Source of the DNA: Acidobacteriota bacterium
GTDB taxonomy: Bacteria > Acidobacteriota > Terriglobia > 2-12-FULL-54-10
DNA: 51,101 nucleotides
Assembly: GCA_016199675.1 (NCBI GenBank)
Contig: JACQGE010000177.1
Span: forward strand, 1 to 51,101
Direction: 5' to 3'
A program made the translations under genes and the position numbers. The notes under the pieces are model-generated. The model was not told the origin of the DNA. It made no database searches and saw only the letters and a program-made list of their open reading frames with translations. Each line of letters opens with the position of its first letter. Position 1 is the stretch's first letter. Positions 15,636 to 31,493 of this stretch are shown here, one piece after another.

Positions 15636-16520
15636 CTACCTGCTCGCGGCGGCGAGTTGATTCCGGGCATGGTAGGAACTGCGGACCAAAGGCCCAGACT
15701 CCACGTGCAGGAAGCCGAACCGTTCGCCCTCCCGCTTCAGTTCCGCAAACTCTTCCGGCGTGTAGTAACGGCTAATCGGGAGGTGATCCGGTGAGGGCCG
15801 CAGGTATTGACCGATTGTCAGGATTTGACAACCGTGGTCAACCAAATCTCTCATCGTAACCAGAATCTCCTCCCATTCCTCTCCTAAACCCACCATCATC
15901 CCCGATTTGGTGGCAATGGCCGGGTCGAAGTTGCGAACCTCGCTGATCAGGCGCAAAGACTGTTCGTACCGAGCACCCGGACGGACACGCCCATAAAGCC
16001 GTGGAACCGTCTCGATATTGTGGTTGAGCACGTCGGGTCGCGCTGCCAGCACTTTTCCCAGTGCTTCCATCGAACCCTGAAAATCCGGAATGAGAACTTC
16101 CACGCGGCACTCCGGGCGGATGTGGCGGATCGCTTGAATGGTTAGGGCAAAGATTTCTGCTCCGCCATCCCGCCGGTCATCGCGGTTGACCGAAGTGACC
16201 ACGGTGTAGAGCAACCCCAACTGCGCTACCGCCTGCGCTACGCGCTCCGGTTCCTCGTAATCGAGCGGCAGCGGAGCGCCTTTGGGTACCGCGCAGAAAC
16301 CGCAGCGTCGGGTGCAAACATCCCCCAGGATCATGAACGTCGCGGTGCGCTGTTCCCAGCACTCGCCCAGGTTCGGGCAGCGAGCGCTCTCGCAAACCGT
16401 GTGCAGCCGCAGCCGGTTCGTCAGGACTTTCAACTCGTGATAGTTGGGGCCGCCGGGCAGGCGCGATTTGATCCATTCCGGACGTCTCGGCTGCACTGTG
16501 ACCAACATGGCTGCTTGCAT
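15636..16520 (-). CDS. lipA: Lipoyl synthase
   Basis: A radical-SAM enzyme that inserts two sulfurs into the octanoyl chain carried by lipoyl domains. The protein is 294 aa. The auxiliary 4Fe-4S cluster motif is C43/C48/C54 (CESARCPNLGEC). The radical-SAM cluster motif is C69/C73/C76 (CTRRCGFC). The C-terminal RSSYHA supplies the conserved Ser that ligates the auxiliary cluster. An in-frame codon 30 bases upstream exists, but ATG at 16520 follows GAGGGTAGA, whose beginning overlaps the stop codon region of the preceding ThiF-like gene. The two are therefore probably translationally coupled. No lipB or lplA lies nearby. Confidence 0.97.
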   Translation of the reverse strand: MQAAMLVTVQPRRPEWIKSRLPGGPNYHELKVLTNRLRLHTVCESARCPNLGECWEQRTATFMILGDVCTRRCGFCAVPKGAPLPLDYEEPERVAQAVAQLGLLYTVVTSVNRDDRRDGGAEIFALTIQAIRHIRPECRVEVLIPDFQGSMEALGKVLAARPDVLNHNIETVPRLYGRVRPGARYEQSLRLISEVRNFDPAIATKSGMMVGLGEEWEEILVTMRDLVDHGCQILTIGQYLRPSPDHLPISRYYTPEEFAELKREGERFGFLHVESGPLVRSSYHARNQLAAASR

Positions 16521-16527
16521 TCTACCC

Positions 16528-17550
16528 TCAGGCGCCGATATACCGCGCATACAAACTACGCGCCAGCCCCGGATTCGTGGTGCCTTGAATAATAGCTCGG
16601 CCGTCCGGGAAAATCGTCATTTGATAAGGAGCTATTGTAAACTGAAACACAAACGGATTAGACCGGACCTCACCCAGCGGCTTCAACCGTTGTTCCAGTT
16701 CCCCAAAATCTACCGCCCGCTTTCGCTCATGGATTTGCACCGAGTTGCGTCCGCAGAGCGTGACCGGCGCAGCGCGTGAGCCGGACAAGTAGGCAAATTC
16801 GCGTTTCTGGCACGCCTGGCAATCTTCCGCTGGCTTACCTGGATTCACCGCCTGGAAGCGATTTTCCCAGACATCGAGTGATAGCAGTTTGCCATGCAGA
16901 GCGTTGTGATCTCCCAGCAGCAACTTCAGAATCTCAGCCACCTGGATGGAAGCCACTGCGGAGGCCGCCGCGTTGATGATCCCTTCCGTGTCGCAGGTGG
17001 TGTTTATCCCCGAGGGCGGCTCCGGAAACAGGCACGCCAGACACGGGCCGCTACCGGGCACGATGGTCATGGTCACGCCGTAACTGCCCACCGCCGCCCC
17101 ATAGACCCATGACACATTGTTCTGAACGCTGAAATCGTTCAGCAAATAACGGGTTTCAAAATTGTCGGTCCCGTCCACAAAGGCGTGAATCCCCGAGAGG
17201 ATTTCGGCGATATTCTCCGCCGTGAGGTCGGCTACAATTCCCCGCACCTTCACGCCAGAATTAGCTTCCCGGAGATGAGCCTCCGCAGCCACGGCTTTCG
17301 GGAGAGACTGAGCGGCATCGTTTTCGTCAAACAGCGTTTGCCGTTGGAGATTGCTCTCCTCCACGTAGTCGCGGTCAACGATCAACAACTCCCCGACACC
17401 GGCGCGAACCAGCATGGAAGCCTGCTGGCTTCCCAAAGCGCCGCAGCCCACAACAGCTACCCGCGAGGCCAACAGTTTCTGCTGCCCTGTTTCCCCAATG
17501 TGCCGGTAGAGGATTTGCCGGGAATATCTCTCCCTCTCTCTGGCGTCCAT
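16528..17550 (-). CDS. ThiF/MoeB-type E1-like adenylyltransferase
   Basis: A 340-aa enzyme of the ThiF/MoeB/HesA family, which adenylates the C-terminal Gly of a ubiquitin-like sulfur carrier (ThiS or MoaD). Visible features are the family start YSRQILYRHIGETGQQKL, the nucleotide-binding loop VVGCGALGS, the Asp/Arg segment VDRDYVEESNLQRQTLF, FVDGTDNFETRYL, and the structural zinc Cys pairs CLAC and CQAC. The last ~75 residues (from VTLCGRNSVQI to ARYIGA) form the extra domain seen in many bacterial ThiF/MoeB proteins. ATG at 17550 is chosen because it gives the family start; an upstream in-frame Met would add 19 non-conserved residues. It is directly upstream of lipA, 7 bases apart. ThiF and MoeB cannot be told apart here, and no sulfur-carrier gene is seen. 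Confidence 0.88.
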   Translation of the reverse strand: MDARERERYSRQILYRHIGETGQQKLLASRVAVVGCGALGSQQASMLVRAGVGELLIVDRDYVEESNLQRQTLFDENDAAQSLPKAVAAEAHLREANSGVKVRGIVADLTAENIAEILSGIHAFVDGTDNFETRYLLNDFSVQNNVSWVYGAAVGSYGVTMTIVPGSGPCLACLFPEPPSGINTTCDTEGIINAAASAVASIQVAEILKLLLGDHNALHGKLLSLDVWENRFQAVNPGKPAEDCQACQKREFAYLSGSRAAPVTLCGRNSVQIHERKRAVDFGELEQRLKPLGEVRSNPFVFQFTIAPYQMTIFPDGRAIIQGTTNPGLARSLYARYIGA

Positions 17551-17624
17551 AGAGCCATTATAAGGAGAACAGTCTGCTTTTTCGGAAATGGTTGAGAGGA
17601 AAGACACGGCAAGCCTGCGGCCGA

Positions 17625-20600
17625 CTAATCGCCAGGGCTCCAGGCTGGAGAAGGCTCTGCGCCGTCAATCCGCTCGGATTCCGCCTGGCCGGAAAGGTAA
17701 TAGTCACAAACAGGCTTGCCAAACTTGTAGAATAGAGCTGGTGTCACCACCCAGTCTAGAAGTGTAGAACTGATCAGGCCGCCAGCGACCACCGCCGCAA
17801 TAGGTTGTAGGAGTTCTTTTCCCGCTTCCCCCTTGGCGAAAACCCAGGGCAAAACACCCAAGATGAATGCCAGGGCGGTCATTAAAACAGGGCGCAACCG
17901 CTCCAAGGTTCCTCGAAAGATCATCTTCTCGTCAAATTTCTCCCCTTCGTAGCGAACCAAGTGGATATAGTGGGAGATCATCATAATGCCATTGCGCGAA
18001 GCAATGCCTCCCACCGTGATGAACCCGATCAGGGAAGCTACTGACAGCACTCCCCCGCTTAAATAAACGGCGATCACTCCTCCCACCAAAGCCAGGGGGA
18101 TGTTTGCCATGATTTGCAAGGCCACACGAGGAAACTGGAAGTGGCCATAAAGCATCAAGAAAACCCCGAGGGTGGCAAATACCGATAAAATCAAGATTAA
18201 ACGCATCGCTTCCGCCTGGTATTGGAACTGTCCTCCATAGATGATGAAGTACCCCGGAGGAAAGGAAATCTGGCTGGCCACACGTTCCTGCAATTCTGTC
18301 ACGGCGCTGCGCAAGTCCCGGCCTGCCACATTCGCTTGTACCGCGATTCTCCGCTGAGCATTCTCGCGCAAAATCAGGTTCGGGGTAGTCCGCAATGAAA
18401 TGTCAGCCACCTGGCGGACGGGTATCTTGGCTCCGTTGGGCGTGTCAATCAGGACTTCGCCAATAGAATTGATGTCATTGCGAAAAGGCTCGTCCAGCCA
18501 CACAACCAAGTCAAAAGATCTCTGGCCATCCAGGATTTGGGAAACAACGCGTCCGCTCAAGGCGGTTTCCAGCACGTCGTTGACCTCCGCGACCTGGAGA
18601 CCATAGGTAGCGGCCCGCTGGCGGTCCACCGCGATCGCCACTTCGGGAACCGGCGTTTGTTTCTCCACCAAAACATCCACCATGCCCGGCACGGTTTTCA
18701 TGATCGTTTCCAGTTCAGCAGCTTTCTGACGGATCACGGGTAAATCGGGGCCAAACACCAGGACAGCAAGCTGTGCCCGAACTCCGCTCTGCATATGTTC
18801 CAGGCGGTGTGAGATGGGCTGGCCGATATTCACCGCCACTCCGGGCAAGATGGAAAGCTGATTCCGGATATCCGCCATGATCTGGTCCTTATTCCGCACC
18901 TTCTGGTCCAGATTCACCTCGATTTCCGTGGAGTAAACCCCTTCGGCGTGCTCATCCAGTTCCGCTCGGCCTGTGCGGCGCCCCGTGGAGATCACCCCAG
19001 GAACCTCCCGGATCCTTTTCTCCGCCAACCGTCCGATCTCGTTCGATTCGCTCAGGCTGATTCCAGGCTCTGCCAGGACAGTCGCCGTCAACGTGCCCTC
19101 ATTGAAAGGAGGCAAGAATTCGCGTCCCATCAGGGGGATAAAAGCGACTGCGAGCAAGACCAGGAAAGCGGCAGCTATCAGAACTTCCCAGGCGTGCGGA
19201 AGAGTCCAGCGCAACAGGTGGGTCTGCTGCTTCTTCAACCAGCGGACCAGCGCAGCATCTCCGGGTTTTTCCATGAAGGGAGCGTTCGGCAGCAGGTAAT
19301 AACACATCACCGGAGTCAGCGTCAGCGAAACCACCATGGACGCCAGCAATGAAACAATGAAAGCCACTCCCAAAGGAGCAAACATGCGGCCTTCCACTCC
19401 CGTCAGGAAAAAGAGAGGAAGGAAGACCAGCACAATGATGAACGTGGCATATACAATCGAATTCCGGATTTCGCAGGATGCGTTGAAGATGACCCGTAGC
19501 GGGGGTTCCGGTTCTCCCCGTTCTTTGTTCTCCTTTAACCGCCGGTAGACGTTCTCCACATCTACAATCGCGTCATCAATGATCAGCCCGATCGCTACCG
19601 CGAGCCCTCCCAGCGTCATGGTGTTGATGTTTAAGTCAAAAAACTTCAGAAACAGGAAAGTGATGAGGAACGAGAGCGGAATCGCTGTGAGGTTAATGAT
19701 AATGGTGCGGAAATTCGCGAGGAAGATCAGCAGAATGAGGGCAACCAGAATTCCCCCTTCCCAGAGACCTTCCTTGACGTTGTCAATGGCCCGCTCAATG
19801 AAATCCGCCTGCCGGAACACATGCGTGTTCATGGTAATTTCCGGCGGCAAGGAAGCCTTGAGCGTGTCCAACGCCTGGACCACGTCCTTCGTCAGGGGAA
19901 TCGTATTGGAATTGGGCTGCTTGTAGATGCTCAGGAGCACCGCCGAGGCACCATTAAACCCTGCGCTGCCCCGCATGACGGGAGAGCCCAATTGGAGCCG
20001 GGCGACATCCCGCACAAAAATCGGCTGATCATTCCGGAAAGCGACTACCGTGGACCCGATATCCTCCAGCTCTGTGGTACGGCCCACATTCCGGACCATG
20101 AATTCCCGATTGGGACTGAGCAGAAAACCGCCGCTCGTGTTTTGGCTGGAAGCGCCGACGGCGAGTTCCAAGTCATGGAAGGTAACGTTATACTGCCGCA
20201 ATCGGTCCGTCGAAGCCAGGACCTGATACTGCTTCACGCCGCCGCCGATGACGGTCACCTGAGAAATTCCAGGAATCGCCAGAAGCCGCGGCCGAAGAAC
20301 CCAATCCGCCAGGGTCCGAATCTCCAGGGGAGAAATCTTCTCCGGGTCTGCCTGCAACGCTACCAGCATGATCTCGCCCATGATGGAGCTAATTGGACCG
20401 AGCACCGGCGTTACATTGGTTGGCAGGCGTCCCCTGGCCAGTTCCAGCCGCTCGGTCACTACCTGTCGGTCCCGGTAGATATCTGAACCCCAGGCAAACT
20501 CCACAAACAACAGCGAAAGTCCTACGCCGGACTGAGAGCGGATGCGCTCGACGTTTGTTGCTCCATTCAGCGCATATTCCAGCGGAATCGTTACCTGGAG

Positions 20601-20789
20601 CTCGACTTCTTCGGGCGACAGCCCAGGCGCTTCCGCAAACACCGTAACAATCGGACGGTTCAAGTCCGGAAAGATGTCTACGGCCAGCTCCCGATAGACT
20701 ACATAGGTCCCATAGAGGAGCACAAAGATGGAAAATGTGATGACGAAGAGCCGATGTTCCAGGGAGAAACGGATAATTCGATCAAACAT
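17625..20789 (-). CDS. CzcA-type efflux RND pump
   Basis: A 1054-aa inner-membrane pump, full length for the RND family. It starts MFDRIIRFSLEHRLFV, the typical amphipathic N-terminus before TM1, and follows a good ribosome binding site (GGAGATAAGAG). TM4 has the paired acidic residues LAVAIGLIIDDAIVDVENVYRRL used for proton relay. The two periplasmic porter halves are complete (DIFPDLNRPIVTV, EFLPPFNEGTLTATVLAEPGISL, GRVVSQILDGQRSFDLVV). It is closer to CzcA-like divalent-cation or uncharacterised metal exporters than to CusA: the CusA TEMLSTGM methionine motif is absent, with SHRLEHMQSGVRAQLAVLVFG in the matching place. It is the last transport gene of a four-gene minus-strand operon. No outer-membrane channel gene accompanies it. 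Substrate is unproven. Confidence 0.93.
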   Translation of the reverse strand: MFDRIIRFSLEHRLFVITFSIFVLLYGTYVVYRELAVDIFPDLNRPIVTVFAEAPGLSPEEVELQVTIPLEYALNGATNVERIRSQSGVGLSLLFVEFAWGSDIYRDRQVVTERLELARGRLPTNVTPVLGPISSIMGEIMLVALQADPEKISPLEIRTLADWVLRPRLLAIPGISQVTVIGGGVKQYQVLASTDRLRQYNVTFHDLELAVGASSQNTSGGFLLSPNREFMVRNVGRTTELEDIGSTVVAFRNDQPIFVRDVARLQLGSPVMRGSAGFNGASAVLLSIYKQPNSNTIPLTKDVVQALDTLKASLPPEITMNTHVFRQADFIERAIDNVKEGLWEGGILVALILLIFLANFRTIIINLTAIPLSFLITFLFLKFFDLNINTMTLGGLAVAIGLIIDDAIVDVENVYRRLKENKERGEPEPPLRVIFNASCEIRNSIVYATFIIVLVFLPLFFLTGVEGRMFAPLGVAFIVSLLASMVVSLTLTPVMCYYLLPNAPFMEKPGDAALVRWLKKQQTHLLRWTLPHAWEVLIAAAFLVLLAVAFIPLMGREFLPPFNEGTLTATVLAEPGISLSESNEIGRLAEKRIREVPGVISTGRRTGRAELDEHAEGVYSTEIEVNLDQKVRNKDQIMADIRNQLSILPGVAVNIGQPISHRLEHMQSGVRAQLAVLVFGPDLPVIRQKAAELETIMKTVPGMVDVLVEKQTPVPEVAIAVDRQRAATYGLQVAEVNDVLETALSGRVVSQILDGQRSFDLVVWLDEPFRNDINSIGEVLIDTPNGAKIPVRQVADISLRTTPNLILRENAQRRIAVQANVAGRDLRSAVTELQERVASQISFPPGYFIIYGGQFQYQAEAMRLILILSVFATLGVFLMLYGHFQFPRVALQIMANIPLALVGGVIAVYLSGGVLSVASLIGFITVGGIASRNGIMMISHYIHLVRYEGEKFDEKMIFRGTLERLRPVLMTALAFILGVLPWVFAKGEAGKELLQPIAAVVAGGLISSTLLDWVVTPALFYKFGKPVCDYYLSGQAESERIDGAEPSPAWSPGD

Positions 20790-20850: not shown

Positions 20851-22698
20851 TTAACCCTGCGGGAGCGCAGCCGTTGTTGATTCTTCCTCTTGCCGGAACG
20901 AACCTAATAAACCCGCGCCTTTGACAATTACCTGGTCGCCTTCTTCCAGGCCGGAAAGAACCTGCCACCATCCGTCCTGCTTGATGCCGACCTCGATCTT
21001 CAGCGGTTCAAACTTCTCCGAGTTGCGGGCAACATAAACATACTGTCTGTCCCCTTCATCCACCACGGCCTGCGCCGGCACCACAATACCTCGCTGTTGA
21101 CGGGAGAAATCCACGCGGACAAAGGACCCCAAGGCCAGCCGTTGCTGCGGATTGGCAACATCTACCAGCACGCGCAAAGTGCGGCCCGTGGGTTCTACGG
21201 CGTCATCAATATAGTGAACCGTACCCGGGAGAGAGTTGCCGCCTCCCTCGGCAGGGAAGACCCTTGCCAGGTCTCCTGCCTTTACTTTCCAAACATCGTA
21301 GAGGTAGACCTGGGTCCAAACCCATACCCGGCTGGTATCTGCAATCGTAAAGAGTTTTCGAAACTCTCCGGTTACATCCAACTGCCCCGGGACAAAATCC
21401 ACCGAAGTGATGGTTCCGCTGATCGGCGATGGCACTCCCGTTTTCCGTGGGTCGCGGAGCTTGATCACATTGACGTAGTTTTTATCCTGAGTCTCAATTT
21501 CGTCGTAAATCTTTTGGGCCTCGTCGTAGAGTTCCTTCGCCCATTTCAAATCCAGCTCATAGGCCGGGTTCGCCGCAGACAGTTTCTGAAATCGCTCGTA
21601 CTCCACCTGCGCGGCATCCAGATGCTTCCTGGCTTCTTCCAGAGTACCTTTAATGTTTTTCTGTTTTTCCAGCATCGGACCCCGTTCCGCCTGAGAAAGC
21701 TCCAAAGTCAGCAGGACAAGTTCCTGGCCTTTCTCTACCCGGTCCCCCGGCACCAGCGGTTTCTTAGAAAATTCAATGCTTCCCCAGAACGGGGAATAAA
21801 CTTCCGCCGTCAGCCGGGCATCCGGCGACACCGTACCAAAAGCCGCCACGGTTTCCCCGAGCGAAACCTGTTTGGCAGCCGCCAGGGCCAGTCCCAATTC
21901 CTTCTGCACTGCTTTCGGAATCGTGTACGATCCGTCTTCGTTCAATTCCACCGTCTCGGCAGCGCCGCCTGCCAGTTTGGGTTTACGCATCGCCAGAACC
22001 TGGTCAATGATGAAAAAGTTCATCAAGGCGACCACCACAACCAAGGAAGCCGCCCCAATAGTGATCGGCCGGATCATCTGCGGGAGATGCCCTCCCCTGA
22101 GGCGCACCTTCCATAGCTGCATTCCCGTCAGCCCGAGGATCAGCAACGCCACCGCCAGATTGACCCAGAATCGGAAAAAGGAAGCCATGTTCGCCTGGAC
22201 CGCAACGGGAAAGTCCAGCGTCAACTGATCGCCCACCTCGCTGTGAACCACGAACCGCAGCAATAAAGTGCCGCTGTCCTGAAAGCGATATTCCGCAATC
22301 CCGAAGACGCCCTCTCCTCCTTCAGGATGGACTGGCAGGTGCGGTTGCAGGACTTTTTGAGTTTTGGCATCCAAGATCGAGCCTTCTGGCAGAATGCCAA
22401 CCGGCACTTCCGATCCCAAGAGCGGGTCTGGCTTCGGCAGCAGACGCTTAACCGTCAGCTCAATGTTGGTGATCTCCCCCACCGTCGGCAACGCGGGAGA
22501 ATGCATGAGTTCGATCCGGTATTTCCCGCCGGCAGCTTCAACAATGCGGGTGATATTCTGCTGCCCGCCTCCCTCTACTTCCCCGTGCGCCCATCCTTTG
22601 AGAGGGACCAGAAGTCCCGCTCCCAGCAGGAGAAAACCCAGTGAGCTTCTGACGCCGATCTTTTGTGCAAGCCAGCGATTCGCAAGTTTTCGCTTCAT
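20851..22698 (-). CDS. Efflux adaptor (HlyD/CusB-like) with extra N-terminal domain and two TMs
   Basis: A 615-aa periplasmic adaptor for the adjoining RND pump, built unusually. Residues 1-38 are a signal sequence ending GWAHG. About 40-170 is a beta-rich domain (RIELMHSPALPTVGEITNIELTV, later QDSGTLLLRFVVHSEVGD). Two hydrophobic segments follow near 173-196 and 213-235. Then comes a standard membrane-fusion core: lipoyl halves around AAFGTVSPDARL and SPISGTITSVDFVPGQL, a coiled-coil hairpin (LEKQKNIKGTLEEARKHLDAAQVEYERF...), a barrel domain and the family end IVVPAQAVVDEGDRQYVYVA...VIVKGAGLL. Typical adaptors are 350-450 aa with no internal TM pair. The start ATG overlaps the stop of the upstream adaptor gene by four bases (ATGA). 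Confidence 0.88.
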   Translation of the reverse strand: MKRKLANRWLAQKIGVRSSLGFLLLGAGLLVPLKGWAHGEVEGGGQQNITRIVEAAGGKYRIELMHSPALPTVGEITNIELTVKRLLPKPDPLLGSEVPVGILPEGSILDAKTQKVLQPHLPVHPEGGEGVFGIAEYRFQDSGTLLLRFVVHSEVGDQLTLDFPVAVQANMASFFRFWVNLAVALLILGLTGMQLWKVRLRGGHLPQMIRPITIGAASLVVVVALMNFFIIDQVLAMRKPKLAGGAAETVELNEDGSYTIPKAVQKELGLALAAAKQVSLGETVAAFGTVSPDARLTAEVYSPFWGSIEFSKKPLVPGDRVEKGQELVLLTLELSQAERGPMLEKQKNIKGTLEEARKHLDAAQVEYERFQKLSAANPAYELDLKWAKELYDEAQKIYDEIETQDKNYVNVIKLRDPRKTGVPSPISGTITSVDFVPGQLDVTGEFRKLFTIADTSRVWVWTQVYLYDVWKVKAGDLARVFPAEGGGNSLPGTVHYIDDAVEPTGRTLRVLVDVANPQQRLALGSFVRVDFSRQQRGIVVPAQAVVDEGDRQYVYVARNSEKFEPLKIEVGIKQDGWWQVLSGLEEGDQVIVKGAGLLGSFRQEEESTTAALPQG

Positions 22699-23600
22699 GG
22701 CGACACCAATTCGACTTCACCGATCATCCCGAACCGCAAGTATTCTCCAGGGTTCTCCACGCGGAACAGCACCTCGCGCACCCGCGTCAGCGGGTCCACC
22801 ATCGGGGGCACCACTTCCAGATGGCCGATATAGGTTTTTCCAGGGATATTATTAAAGCGGATTCTGATTGTTACTTTGTCCTGAAACGGGCGGCGATCGG
22901 CCTCTGGAAAACGCGCTGCGACCCCAACCTCCTTGAGATTGGTAATCCGATATAGCATATATCCTTCATTGACTACCTGGCCCTGCGTGAAATTGACCAG
23001 GCTGACGTCTCCCTCAATCGGAGAAAAAATCCCGCGCCGCACCAGATCGCTTTGCTGAATCTGGGAATCCTGCTGTTCCAGAAGAGCTTTGGCCTTGGCG
23101 TATTCTGCTTGGGCCACTTGCTCCTCGGCGCGCAATGCCTGCACTTCCTGGCCGGACGTGGAACCCAGCTTCAGCAGACGCTCGGACTTCTCCCGCGCCA
23201 CACGCGCTTGTAATGCAGCGTAACGCGCATTCAACATCGCGGACAGATAATCCCAGCGGACTGTCGAAAGGTGGACCCAATCGTGCAAATTGTAGCGGTG
23301 CTCGATGATGGAAAGCGGGGCGCCTTTCTTTACTTTGTCTCCCACGCTGAGCGGTTGTGCGGTAGCCGGGATAATACGGCCTGTCGCCGGAGCATATACC
23401 TCAACGACCGTATTCGGCAGCGGTACAACCTTTCCTAGCACCATTCCTTGCTGGGCCCCGGCGGGAACGGTCAGACAAACAAGGAAGCCCACTGCCCACA
23501 TCAGCTTTTTCCGCCAGGCAATAGGACAGACACTACCCACGACGGGTTCCCGTCTCCAAGAATCCGTGGAGAGTCTGTTGATGCGCATTTTCTTCTGCAT
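22695..23600 (-). CDS. Short HlyD-family efflux adaptor
   Basis: A 301-aa second adaptor in the same operon. A basic N-terminus leads to a TM/signal segment (LMWAVGFLVCLTVPAGAQQ, about 33-51). The two lipoyl half-motifs are VEVYAPATGRIIPATAQPLSVGDKVKKGAPLSIIE and RRGIFSPIEGDVSLVNFTQGQVV. They flank an alpha-helical hairpin with many Ala, Glu and Gln (RYAALQARVAREKSERLL... to LLEQQDSQIQQ). A barrel domain follows and ends GMIGEVELVSP. It lacks the membrane-proximal domain, so it stops earlier than classical adaptors. TTGAGGA lies directly before the first ATG and overlaps the stop of the preceding gene; an ATG 12 bases further in is an alternative start. It is probably translated with its neighbours. 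Confidence 0.85.
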   Translation of the reverse strand: MQKKMRINRLSTDSWRREPVVGSVCPIAWRKKLMWAVGFLVCLTVPAGAQQGMVLGKVVPLPNTVVEVYAPATGRIIPATAQPLSVGDKVKKGAPLSIIEHRYNLHDWVHLSTVRWDYLSAMLNARYAALQARVAREKSERLLKLGSTSGQEVQALRAEEQVAQAEYAKAKALLEQQDSQIQQSDLVRRGIFSPIEGDVSLVNFTQGQVVNEGYMLYRITNLKEVGVAARFPEADRRPFQDKVTIRIRFNNIPGKTYIGHLEVVPPMVDPLTRVREVLFRVENPGEYLRFGMIGEVELVSP

Positions 23601-23603
23601 TCC

Positions 23604-24155
23604 TCAACTGCCGGAAGCCGCTTGCAACAAATACATTCCTCGGCGAACCGCCTTCAGCAGCGATTGGCCTGCGTTAGCGTCTCCGGCATAACGTATATCC
23701 TGACCCAGGGCCAGGGGGGACTTGCTATTCTTTCCCTGGAATTGATCCAAAAACTCCTTCGCGCTCAACTTCGGATCGTCCCCGTTTTCCACGACGACCA
23801 CTCGGCTCACGGAACCATCTTTTTTGAATCCGATTGCCAAGTCCACAGCTCCTTTCGGCCCTCGCGCATCAATCAAGACCACGGTTCCGAGCACTCCGGA
23901 GCCATCGGCGCTCTTGCCAAGCGCCACATAATAGGAGAACGGGTTATCATTGCGTTGCAACTTGCTTCCAGAAAGCTGTTCGATGCGTTGGATCTGTTCC
24001 GGGGTCAGTGTCTTCTTTCGGGCCGTAAACCCCGTGGCTTCCGGAAAAACTTTTTTTAGCGTTTGCTCGGGAAACCCTGTCTCGTGGGCTTGTATCAATA
24101 CGGTGGACGCCAACCCCAGGAGCAAGCAATAACCTGTGATACCCCTCCTGCTCAT
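23604..24155 (-). CDS. Exported FMN_bind-like protein, first gene of metal-efflux operon
   Basis: A 183-aa exported protein with a cleavable-looking signal (to about residue 23, LIQA/HETG). The mature part resembles FMN_bind domains of the NqrC/RnfG/NosR type: an early FPEATGFTARKKTLTPEQIQRIEQLSG, a middle beta sheet with VLGTVVLIDARGPKGAVDLAIGF and SVSRVVVVENGD, and a C-terminal block DIRYAGDANAGQSLLKAVRRG (142-162). In flavinylated members that block contains a Thr (SGATxTS-type) that bonds FMN. Here it reads GDANAGQS, so covalent flavin is unlikely unless another residue is used. The start follows GGGGAGGAGAATC. It leads the operon with two adaptors and the RND pump. The fold call is moderately sure. 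The role, perhaps redox or metal sensing, is unknown. Confidence 0.7.
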   Translation of the reverse strand: MSRRGITGYCLLLGLASTVLIQAHETGFPEQTLKKVFPEATGFTARKKTLTPEQIQRIEQLSGSKLQRNDNPFSYYVALGKSADGSGVLGTVVLIDARGPKGAVDLAIGFKKDGSVSRVVVVENGDDPKLSAKEFLDQFQGKNSKSPLALGQDIRYAGDANAGQSLLKAVRRGMYLLQAASGS

Positions 24156-30415: not shown

Positions 30416-30833
30416 TCTTTCTTTCATGTCGGCTTGCAGAACAGCCGTGATGTCATGCGGCAGACTGGTTTCCTCCCGTAGTCTTTCGTAGTAATTGCAA
30501 GATAACAGGTATGTTGTCTTAAGTCACTATTTCGAATGCCTTTCAGCAAGGAGCTCAACCTTCATTTAATCTTTAGCTCCCTCCTGCATTTGACATGTTT
30601 GTGCGCCCTTGCTTGCAATTGCTTCTCCTTTTTTCTTAAAACAAGCGGAATATCTTATTCCAATAACCCAAATTCGGAAACCGGAAGTATGGAACGGATT
30701 TTGCACTGATATGGATGGGAATCAAGGCGCTTTTGGTGTGCCTGATGGCATTTCTCTCTAAGCGCAGAGCGTGGCAGAGGAAGTTCTATTCAACACATCC
30801 GAGCGGTGGTTCGCACGAAAATGGGCAAGCTGC
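30416..30833 (+). other. Intergenic leader region of the ACIII operon, with a candidate promoter
   Basis: About 420 bases without a convincing gene. It probably holds the promoter of the respiratory operon. The best candidate is TTGACA (30590-30595) with an 18-base spacer to TGCAAT (30614-30619); spacing and -10 are only fair. The stretch is AT-rich between 30500 and 30700. An open frame from a GTG at 30771 runs into actA, but its first 21 codons do not look like protein of that family. No tRNA or known riboswitch was recognised. Confidence 0.4.
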
Positions 30834-31493
30834 ATGGCTCAGGTCTTTTACCCCAGCACGAACACAATCTTCCGCCTCTGTTTGTTTTCCGCTCTGTTTT
30901 TGATCGCCTTTTTATTGTGGGTGTTGGCGACACTGCAGCGATCTTCGTACATGACTGAAGCCAACGTCGAGCAAGATCAGCCGGTGCAATTCAGCCATAA
31001 GCACCATGTGGCGGATGATGGCATTGATTGCCGCTATTGCCACACATCGGTGGAAGCTTCCGCCTTTGCCGGCATCCCGCCCACAAAAACCTGCATGAAT
31101 TGCCACTCGGAGATTTTCCGAGATAGCGACTATTTGAGTCCGGTTCGCGAGAGCTTCCGTACTGGCCAGCCGATTCGATGGAACCGTGTCCATCAATTGG
31201 CTGATTTTGTTTATTTCGACCACAGCATTCATGTGAGCAAAGGGGTGGGTTGCTCCACCTGCCACGGGCGCGTGGATCAGATGCCTCTCGTTCGCCAAGT
31301 GGTTTCTCTGCAGATGGAGTGGTGCCTGGACTGCCATCGCCACCCGGAACTCTATTTGCGACCCGTAGACCAGGTTTTTTCCATGGAATGGCAGCCGCCC
31401 TCCGATCAGCCGGAACGGGGACGCCAATTAGCAAAACTGTATCGAATTCGCAGTGTTGAGGAACTCACCAGTTGCTCCACCTGCCACCGATGA
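30834..31493 (+). CDS. actA: Alternative complex III, pentaheme cytochrome c subunit ActA
   Basis: A 219-aa membrane-anchored multiheme cytochrome of ACIII, the quinol:cytochrome c/oxidase oxidoreductase. A TM helix spans about residues 14-34. The periplasmic part holds exactly five c-type heme motifs: CRYCH (66-70), CMNCH (87-91), CSTCH (130-134), CLDCH (154-158) and CSTCH (214-218). ATG 30834 gives the family-typical start MAQVFYPSTNTIFR. A GTG at 30771 is in frame but adds non-matching residues. The TGA stop overlaps the actB start (ATGA). Confidence 0.92.
   Translation: MAQVFYPSTNTIFRLCLFSALFLIAFLLWVLATLQRSSYMTEANVEQDQPVQFSHKHHVADDGIDCRYCHTSVEASAFAGIPPTKTCMNCHSEIFRDSDYLSPVRESFRTGQPIRWNRVHQLADFVYFDHSIHVSKGVGCSTCHGRVDQMPLVRQVVSLQMEWCLDCHRHPELYLRPVDQVFSMEWQPPSDQPERGRQLAKLYRIRSVEELTSCSTCHR

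Follow-up and report, generated by a model that had tools for sequence, protein, structure and literature searches.

A CusA/CzcA-related pump locus with two unlike adaptors in an Acidobacteriota genome

Most tripartite efflux pumps contain six copies of one adaptor, which makes the roles of the two ring positions hard to ask about. In the triclosan system TriABC-OpmH of Pseudomonas aeruginosa, OpmH is encoded elsewhere in the genome. This system joins one resistance-nodulation-division (RND) pump to two unlike, non-equivalent adaptors (PMC13328181; PMC8277102), and the locus described here encodes two unlike adaptors together with one RND pump. It lies in a 51,101-nucleotide stretch of DNA (contig JACQGE010000177.1 of the Acidobacteriota bacterium assembly GCA_016199675.1), referred to as the window. 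Numbered C156, this contig belongs to a draft genome of 2.5 Mb (G000; 198 contigs, 86.6% complete). Four genes, all on the minus strand, encode in this order an exported FMN_bind/RnfG-like leader protein, a short adaptor (S), a long adaptor (L) and a CusA/CzcA-type pump. From sequence, structure models and analogy, we consider it reasonably probable that they are the central components of a tripartite metal exporter with two non-equivalent adaptors, whose pump belongs to an RND subfamily related to CusA/CzcA.

Gene order and its recurrence in Acidobacteriota

A preliminary description of the window had proposed this order with adaptors of 301 and 615 amino acids (aa), and the open reading frames (ORFs) confirm it. 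The leader gene (23604..24155; 183 aa) is separated by 3 nucleotides (nt) from that of S (22695..23600; 301 aa), which overlaps the L gene (20851..22698; 615 aa) by the 4 nt ATGA. The pump gene (17625..20789; 1054 aa) follows after a gap of 61 nt and lies beyond the segment 20851-24155 to which attention had been drawn, yet it is the next gene in order. Both adaptors are HlyD-type proteins according to Pfam and NCBIfam (HlyD_D23, E 7.6e-20 for S and 1.5e-24 for L).

The order leader, S, L and pump, on one strand, is found in all six other genomes of the family that were examined (seven of seven with the window genome) and is thus not unique to this genome; this recurrence rules out both a gene-order accident and an assembly error. 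In the six relatives the adaptors are 50-67% and the pumps 72-80% identical to the window proteins, and G001 alone contains two same-strand ORFs, of 314 and 146 aa, between L and pump (locus L029, 6535-7985). The adaptor pair is also kept in four further Acidobacteriota families. A contig scan with the long adaptor as single query gave no match, and one with an alignment returned only five metagenome-assembled genomes (MAGs) of Acidobacteria, which are the same family members; the named relatives are all Acidobacteria MAGs. The open-licence papers searched, including reviews and surveys of heavy-metal efflux (HME) pumps, contained no description of this system. The two-adaptor pump, carried by a rare group of Acidobacteria, is conserved and apparently an undescribed variation on a familiar exporter, which agrees, within the literature searched, with the earlier suggestion of an undescribed variant.

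Profiles split into the short-type core, the long-type core and the N-terminal domain distinguish three types of locus. Type A, in which S is accompanied by an L with an N-terminal beta domain, comprises the window family, G348 and G183 (pump on another contig), while type B, in which S carries the beta domain, comprises G200 and G147 and also G192, G269 and G285. In the last three genomes the adaptor pair is on contigs separate from the FMN_bind-like and pump genes, and the L of G285 is cut by the contig end. Type C has a single beta-domain adaptor (G139, G302). Even in genomes with a split operon (G269, G192, G183), S and L remain side by side.

Directly upstream of the four genes, the six relatives encode a cohesin-domain protein and an exported helical protein of 250-290 aa. 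In loci where comparison is possible (L028, L031-L033; also L049 1-4441), this pair is preceded by a MoxR/DUF58/VWA ('Bat'-like) cluster, in which the MoxR label is presumed from synteny. The window genome has the upstream half of this arrangement on C18 (L049 1-4441) and the downstream half on C156, where an unrelated plus-strand gene adjoins the pump operon on its upstream side, and the super-operon is therefore split in this genome.

Divergence of the adaptors and the pump

Maximum-likelihood analysis of 35 adaptor cores places the 12 S sequences in one group (support 99/97) and the 12 L sequences in another (100/100). Branching inside the two clades matches, with G183 beside type B, the window family together and G348 apart. 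The pumps of the two-adaptor loci also form one group (Shimodaira-Hasegawa-like approximate likelihood ratio test, SH-aLRT, 96), and their branching, obtained by a quick method without bootstrap, is compatible with that of the adaptors. Every L-clade adaptor has an S-clade partner in the loci examined (12/12). The simplest reading of these sequences is one ancient duplication of the adaptors followed by joint inheritance. Because the divergence of S and L parallels that of a single pump clade, they appear to belong to one machine, and an association of the two adaptors with different pumps, which had been considered at the outset, is not borne out. Most simply, by analogy with TriABC, they would form a mixed (3+3) S/L ring. 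A mixed adaptor ring had been put forward in the preliminary description, and it gains indirect support from the ancient paralogy, the matching trees of S, L and pump and the cohesion of the pair where the operon is broken up.

The two adaptors differ in domain content. S keeps the beta-barrel, lipoyl and alpha-hairpin regions, and no transmembrane (TM) segment was found in its mature part. It aligns only to positions 32-276 of the 348 of the L core, the C-terminal membrane-proximal part being absent; it thus lacks the C-terminal element of the membrane-proximal domain, a domain that a review describes as common to all RND-associated adaptors (PMC8277102). In L, the hairpin, lipoyl, barrel and membrane-proximal regions are all present. 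Its core (20893..21936; residues 255-602, including the C-terminal membrane-proximal part at about 531-602) matches ZneB, MacA and CusB by profile and by fold, and is closest to ZneB (sequence E 7.6e-29; fold match to 3lnn, E 3.2e-18). The extra N-terminal beta domain and the two internal TM helices noted earlier in L are both recovered. The former, an Ig-like/YtkA-like domain (22195..22560; residues 47-168), is modelled by AlphaFold2 as nine-stranded and followed by two helices (21991..22188; residues about 171-200 and 205-236), which coincide with hydropathy peaks in the sequence; the predicted local distance difference test score (pLDDT), taken by block, is mostly 73-84 in the beta domain.

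The N-terminal domain of type A L is homologous to that of type B S (G200/G147-type loci; hhalign E 5.4e-13), so that one lineage carries the beta domain on L and the other on S. This amounts to a domain swap, in which one N-terminal beta domain per adaptor pair is kept though the host adaptor differs. Matches to YtkA (PF13115) occur in relatives (E 5e-4 and 2.3e-3), both below the cutoff, and the window L has none. The probable mature N-terminus of the beta-domain adaptors is a His in all two-adaptor loci except G183, with sites judged by eye.

The pump, named CzcA-type in the preliminary description, indeed exceeds the threshold of the CusA/CzcA family (HME) of TIGR00914 (824.1 bits vs a cutoff of 701.45) and matches the PDB structure of CusA, 3k07, with E 1.2e-146. 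Its TM4 motif is DDAIVDVEN (AIG-DDA-VEN), with DDA-VEN found across the whole pump group. The HME1/HME2 pumps CzcA, CnrA and NccA carry DFG-DGA-VEN at this place (PMC3637150), a motif that the window pump does not have. Three histidines, H614, H661 and H665, show no variation across the wider group. The single-adaptor relatives G139 and G302 contain DUF305 and cupredoxin/YtkA-like genes between adaptor and pump (L078 10353-11162; L088 4471-6833), and the neighbours of the related Hymenobacter pump are copper-binding and multicopper-oxidase genes. The cargo would be a metal, with copper slightly favoured from the neighbours of related pumps.

The TolC relative, the leader protein and neighbouring genes

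The preliminary description stated that the outer-membrane channel is missing, which is true of this contig and does not hold for the genome. Contig C18 encodes a TolC relative, which matches the profile built from the relatives with E 7.7e-78; the exported helical protein encoded immediately upstream of the FMN_bind-like gene in those six genomes is its counterpart. Its profile aligns to eight full-length outer-membrane efflux proteins (OEPs) over two helical stretches (hhalign E 4.3e-8, probability 95%), and the alignment lacks the intervening and N-terminal parts, where the strands of the barrel would be expected. AlphaFold2 models the G004 homologue as two long alpha-hairpins (four long helices) without barrel strands (mean pLDDT 77.8), and every one of its 40 best Foldseek matches in the PDB is an outer-membrane factor (VceC, OprN, CusC and others), with probabilities of 0.96-1.00 although the best E is no lower than 2e-3. 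Model and alignment thus point to a cut-down, barrel-less TolC relative in the window family. Related families (G200, G147, G139, G302) encode a full-length OEP directly upstream of the FMN_bind-like gene. Full-length TolC-family proteins are also found elsewhere in the genomes of the window family, so that one of them may serve as the exit.

The description of the leader as FMN_bind-like holds in part. Its PF04205 match is below the cutoff (17.8 bits vs 22), and its family profile matches the solved RnfG 9eri_G (E 1.2e-5), a distant relationship. ApbE attaches flavin mononucleotide (FMN) at the motif [S/T]GA[S/T], and a different ApbE substrate is no longer flavinylated once its Thr is replaced (PMC8238504). 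None of 19 leader homologues contains this motif, and ApbE was not found in four of the seven family genomes (G000, G003, G005, which is estimated to be 100% complete, and G006), being present in G001, G002 and G004. Covalent flavin in the leader is therefore unlikely, and the leader is probably, judging from its sequence, a flavin-free FMN_bind derivative with a periplasmic helper role, such as that of a metallochaperone. Its probable signal peptide ends ...LIQA|HETGFP, which would leave a His at the mature N-terminus. A probable mature N-terminal His occurs in the leaders of types A and B, and exported proteins of Hymenobacter and Magnetospirillum show a like pattern (A|HGGEDHG). With cleavage sites judged by eye, the pattern suggests a candidate N-terminal metal site.

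The leader gene stands next to pump or adaptors in several families. G269 contains three FMN_bind-like copies (L083, L084, L130), only one of which was seen directly before a pump. A plasmid search with the leader protein gave two weak matches. On a Massilia putida plasmid from tungsten-mine soil (L104 6621-11221), an ArsR/SmtB regulator, an FMN_bind-like protein without the flavinylation motif and a MacB-type ATP-binding cassette (ABC) exporter are encoded together. This match was rejected as a member of an RND operon, as it belongs to the ArsR-linked MacB-type ABC operon, and its 313-aa neighbour was rejected as a TolC protein, there being no profile match. A 209-aa Hymenobacter protein was likewise discarded as an FMN_bind-like gene product, since it looks like a beta-domain protein.

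Other genes of the window include a ThiF-family gene and a radical S-adenosylmethionine (SAM) gene with a lipoyl-synthase N-terminal match, which follow the pump (15636-17607, minus strand) in a neighbourhood common to the window, G001 (L029) and G005 (L033). Another RND permease, truncated where the contig begins (2-3016, plus strand; PF00873 in two stretches of a 1004-aa open frame), is only 30% identical to the pump at 17625..20789. An exported-looking protein with several CxxCH haem motifs (30771-31493, plus strand) heads a long series of plus-strand genes that extends to about 50.6 kb and possibly encodes a respiratory complex.

Proposed mechanism, alternatives and known systems

In the proposed system, a proton-driven trimeric pump would take metal ions from the periplasm. 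L, anchored by its two TM helices, would contact the pump via its complete membrane-proximal domain, and its beta domain may bind or present metal. S, without the C-terminal membrane-proximal part, would alternate with L in a 3+3 funnel, adding hairpin and lipoyl contacts. A TolC-family partner, which is full-length beside the genes in related families and present here as a barrel-less helical form on another contig, would complete the route, and the FMN_bind-like protein may act as a flavin-free periplasmic helper, such as a metallochaperone. A more specific version for the window family, in which a barrel-less TolC-like periplasmic tube extends the alternating S and L and the flavin-free leader is a metallochaperone, appears doubtful. 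If true, export would end in the periplasm or pass to an unrelated outer-membrane protein.

Several points weigh against this two-adaptor metal-efflux system. None of the residues aligned with the methionine triad of CusA (HME4; M573, M623 and M672) is a Met in the pump, M672 aligning with H665, and with the triad absent, CusA-like handling of copper(I) has no support. The mixed ring draws on co-divergence and precedent. The C-terminal membrane-proximal part is retained in the S of G183 but missing from both adaptors of type B. Type B thus shows that pumps of this group can do without it, which weakens the argument for a division of labour between S and L. The model of L has a low overall confidence (predicted template modelling score, pTM, 0.29), so that the placement of the domains in it is tentative. 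S-type adaptors are rare, with matches at E <= 1e-25 in eight of 396 genomes scanned across the phylum, seven of them in families f58, f67, f69 and f72. Finally, were the barrel-less TolC relative the sole partner, the outer-membrane step would be unexplained.

Other explanations account for parts of these observations. L might form the whole ring of a single-adaptor metal pump, with S as a helper that binds the pump or its TolC partner transiently. The sister pumps of G139 and G302, which are accompanied by an FMN_bind-like gene and by the beta-domain long adaptor as their only adaptor, are in line with this, as is the fact that L alone carries all canonical adaptor domains. However, L has an S partner at 12 of 12 L-clade loci, and this partner, in which the hairpin and barrel regions are preserved, has diverged in parallel with L, and with neither adaptor of type B looking canonical, a lone ring of L is an unlikely arrangement, though one to be kept in view. 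S, together with the cut-down TolC relative, could instead be a remnant of a duplicated system that is kept by linkage. Yet the seven family genomes, at identities of 30-80%, have no broken ORF and share conserved motifs, whereas genes in decay would by now show frameshifts, and the split has left both halves of the gene set in place; decay is thus highly improbable, in spite of the lost membrane-proximal part, the lost barrel region and the splitting of the operon in several genomes.

The last alternative concerns the leader, which had been proposed, together with L, to add a sensing or redox step. As a working flavoprotein with non-covalent FMN, it could perform, e.g., the reduction of Cu(II) to Cu(I) or redox sensing, and its profile relation to RnfG and conserved position beside pump or adaptors in several families would fit such a role. 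Nevertheless, the missing flavinylation motif in the 19 homologues and the failure to find ApbE in four family genomes speak against the redox proposal, the operon contains no obvious redox partner gene, and we regard a flavoprotein as very unlikely. Should the two-adaptor metal-efflux system be right, the anciently separated S and L, with their domain loss and swap, offer a natural experiment on the ring positions beyond TriABC, the one well-studied case. The TolC relative without a barrel and the FMN_bind relative without flavin would be cases, open to testing, of known folds in new use.

The components resemble several described systems. The pump shares the TIGR00914 family with CusCBA, ZneCAB and CzcCBA, and the L core is nearest in fold to ZneB; in contrast to these systems, the window set has two adaptors, no CusA methionine triad, the TM4 sequence DDAIVDVEN and its TolC gene off the contig. 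The family profile of the leader matches RnfG, of the FMN_bind (PF04205) family, but no homologue has the flavinylation motif and ApbE was not found in several hosts. The C18 protein and its relatives align with TolC/OEP (PF02321) and are modelled as TolC-like alpha-hairpins, but without a barrel. Plasmid RND operons of Hymenobacter and Magnetospirillum (L107, L106) encode pumps 52-53% identical to that of the window in the order TolC, adaptor, pump; unlike the window set, they have one adaptor and no FMN_bind-like gene. Homology to the window beta domain is weak in Hymenobacter, and the hhalign comparison with the Magnetospirillum N-terminal domain gave no demonstrated homology. The nearest described case is TriABC-OpmH. 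TriC is a drug pump (hydrophobic and amphiphilic efflux, HAE), whereas the window pump is of the CusA/CzcA kind, and unlike in TriABC, S lacks the C-terminal membrane-proximal part, L bears two TM helices and an extra beta domain, and the set includes an FMN_bind-like gene. In the window set, gene association and co-divergence link two unlike adaptors to one pump, and a joint assembly like that of TriABC would be the predicted outcome.

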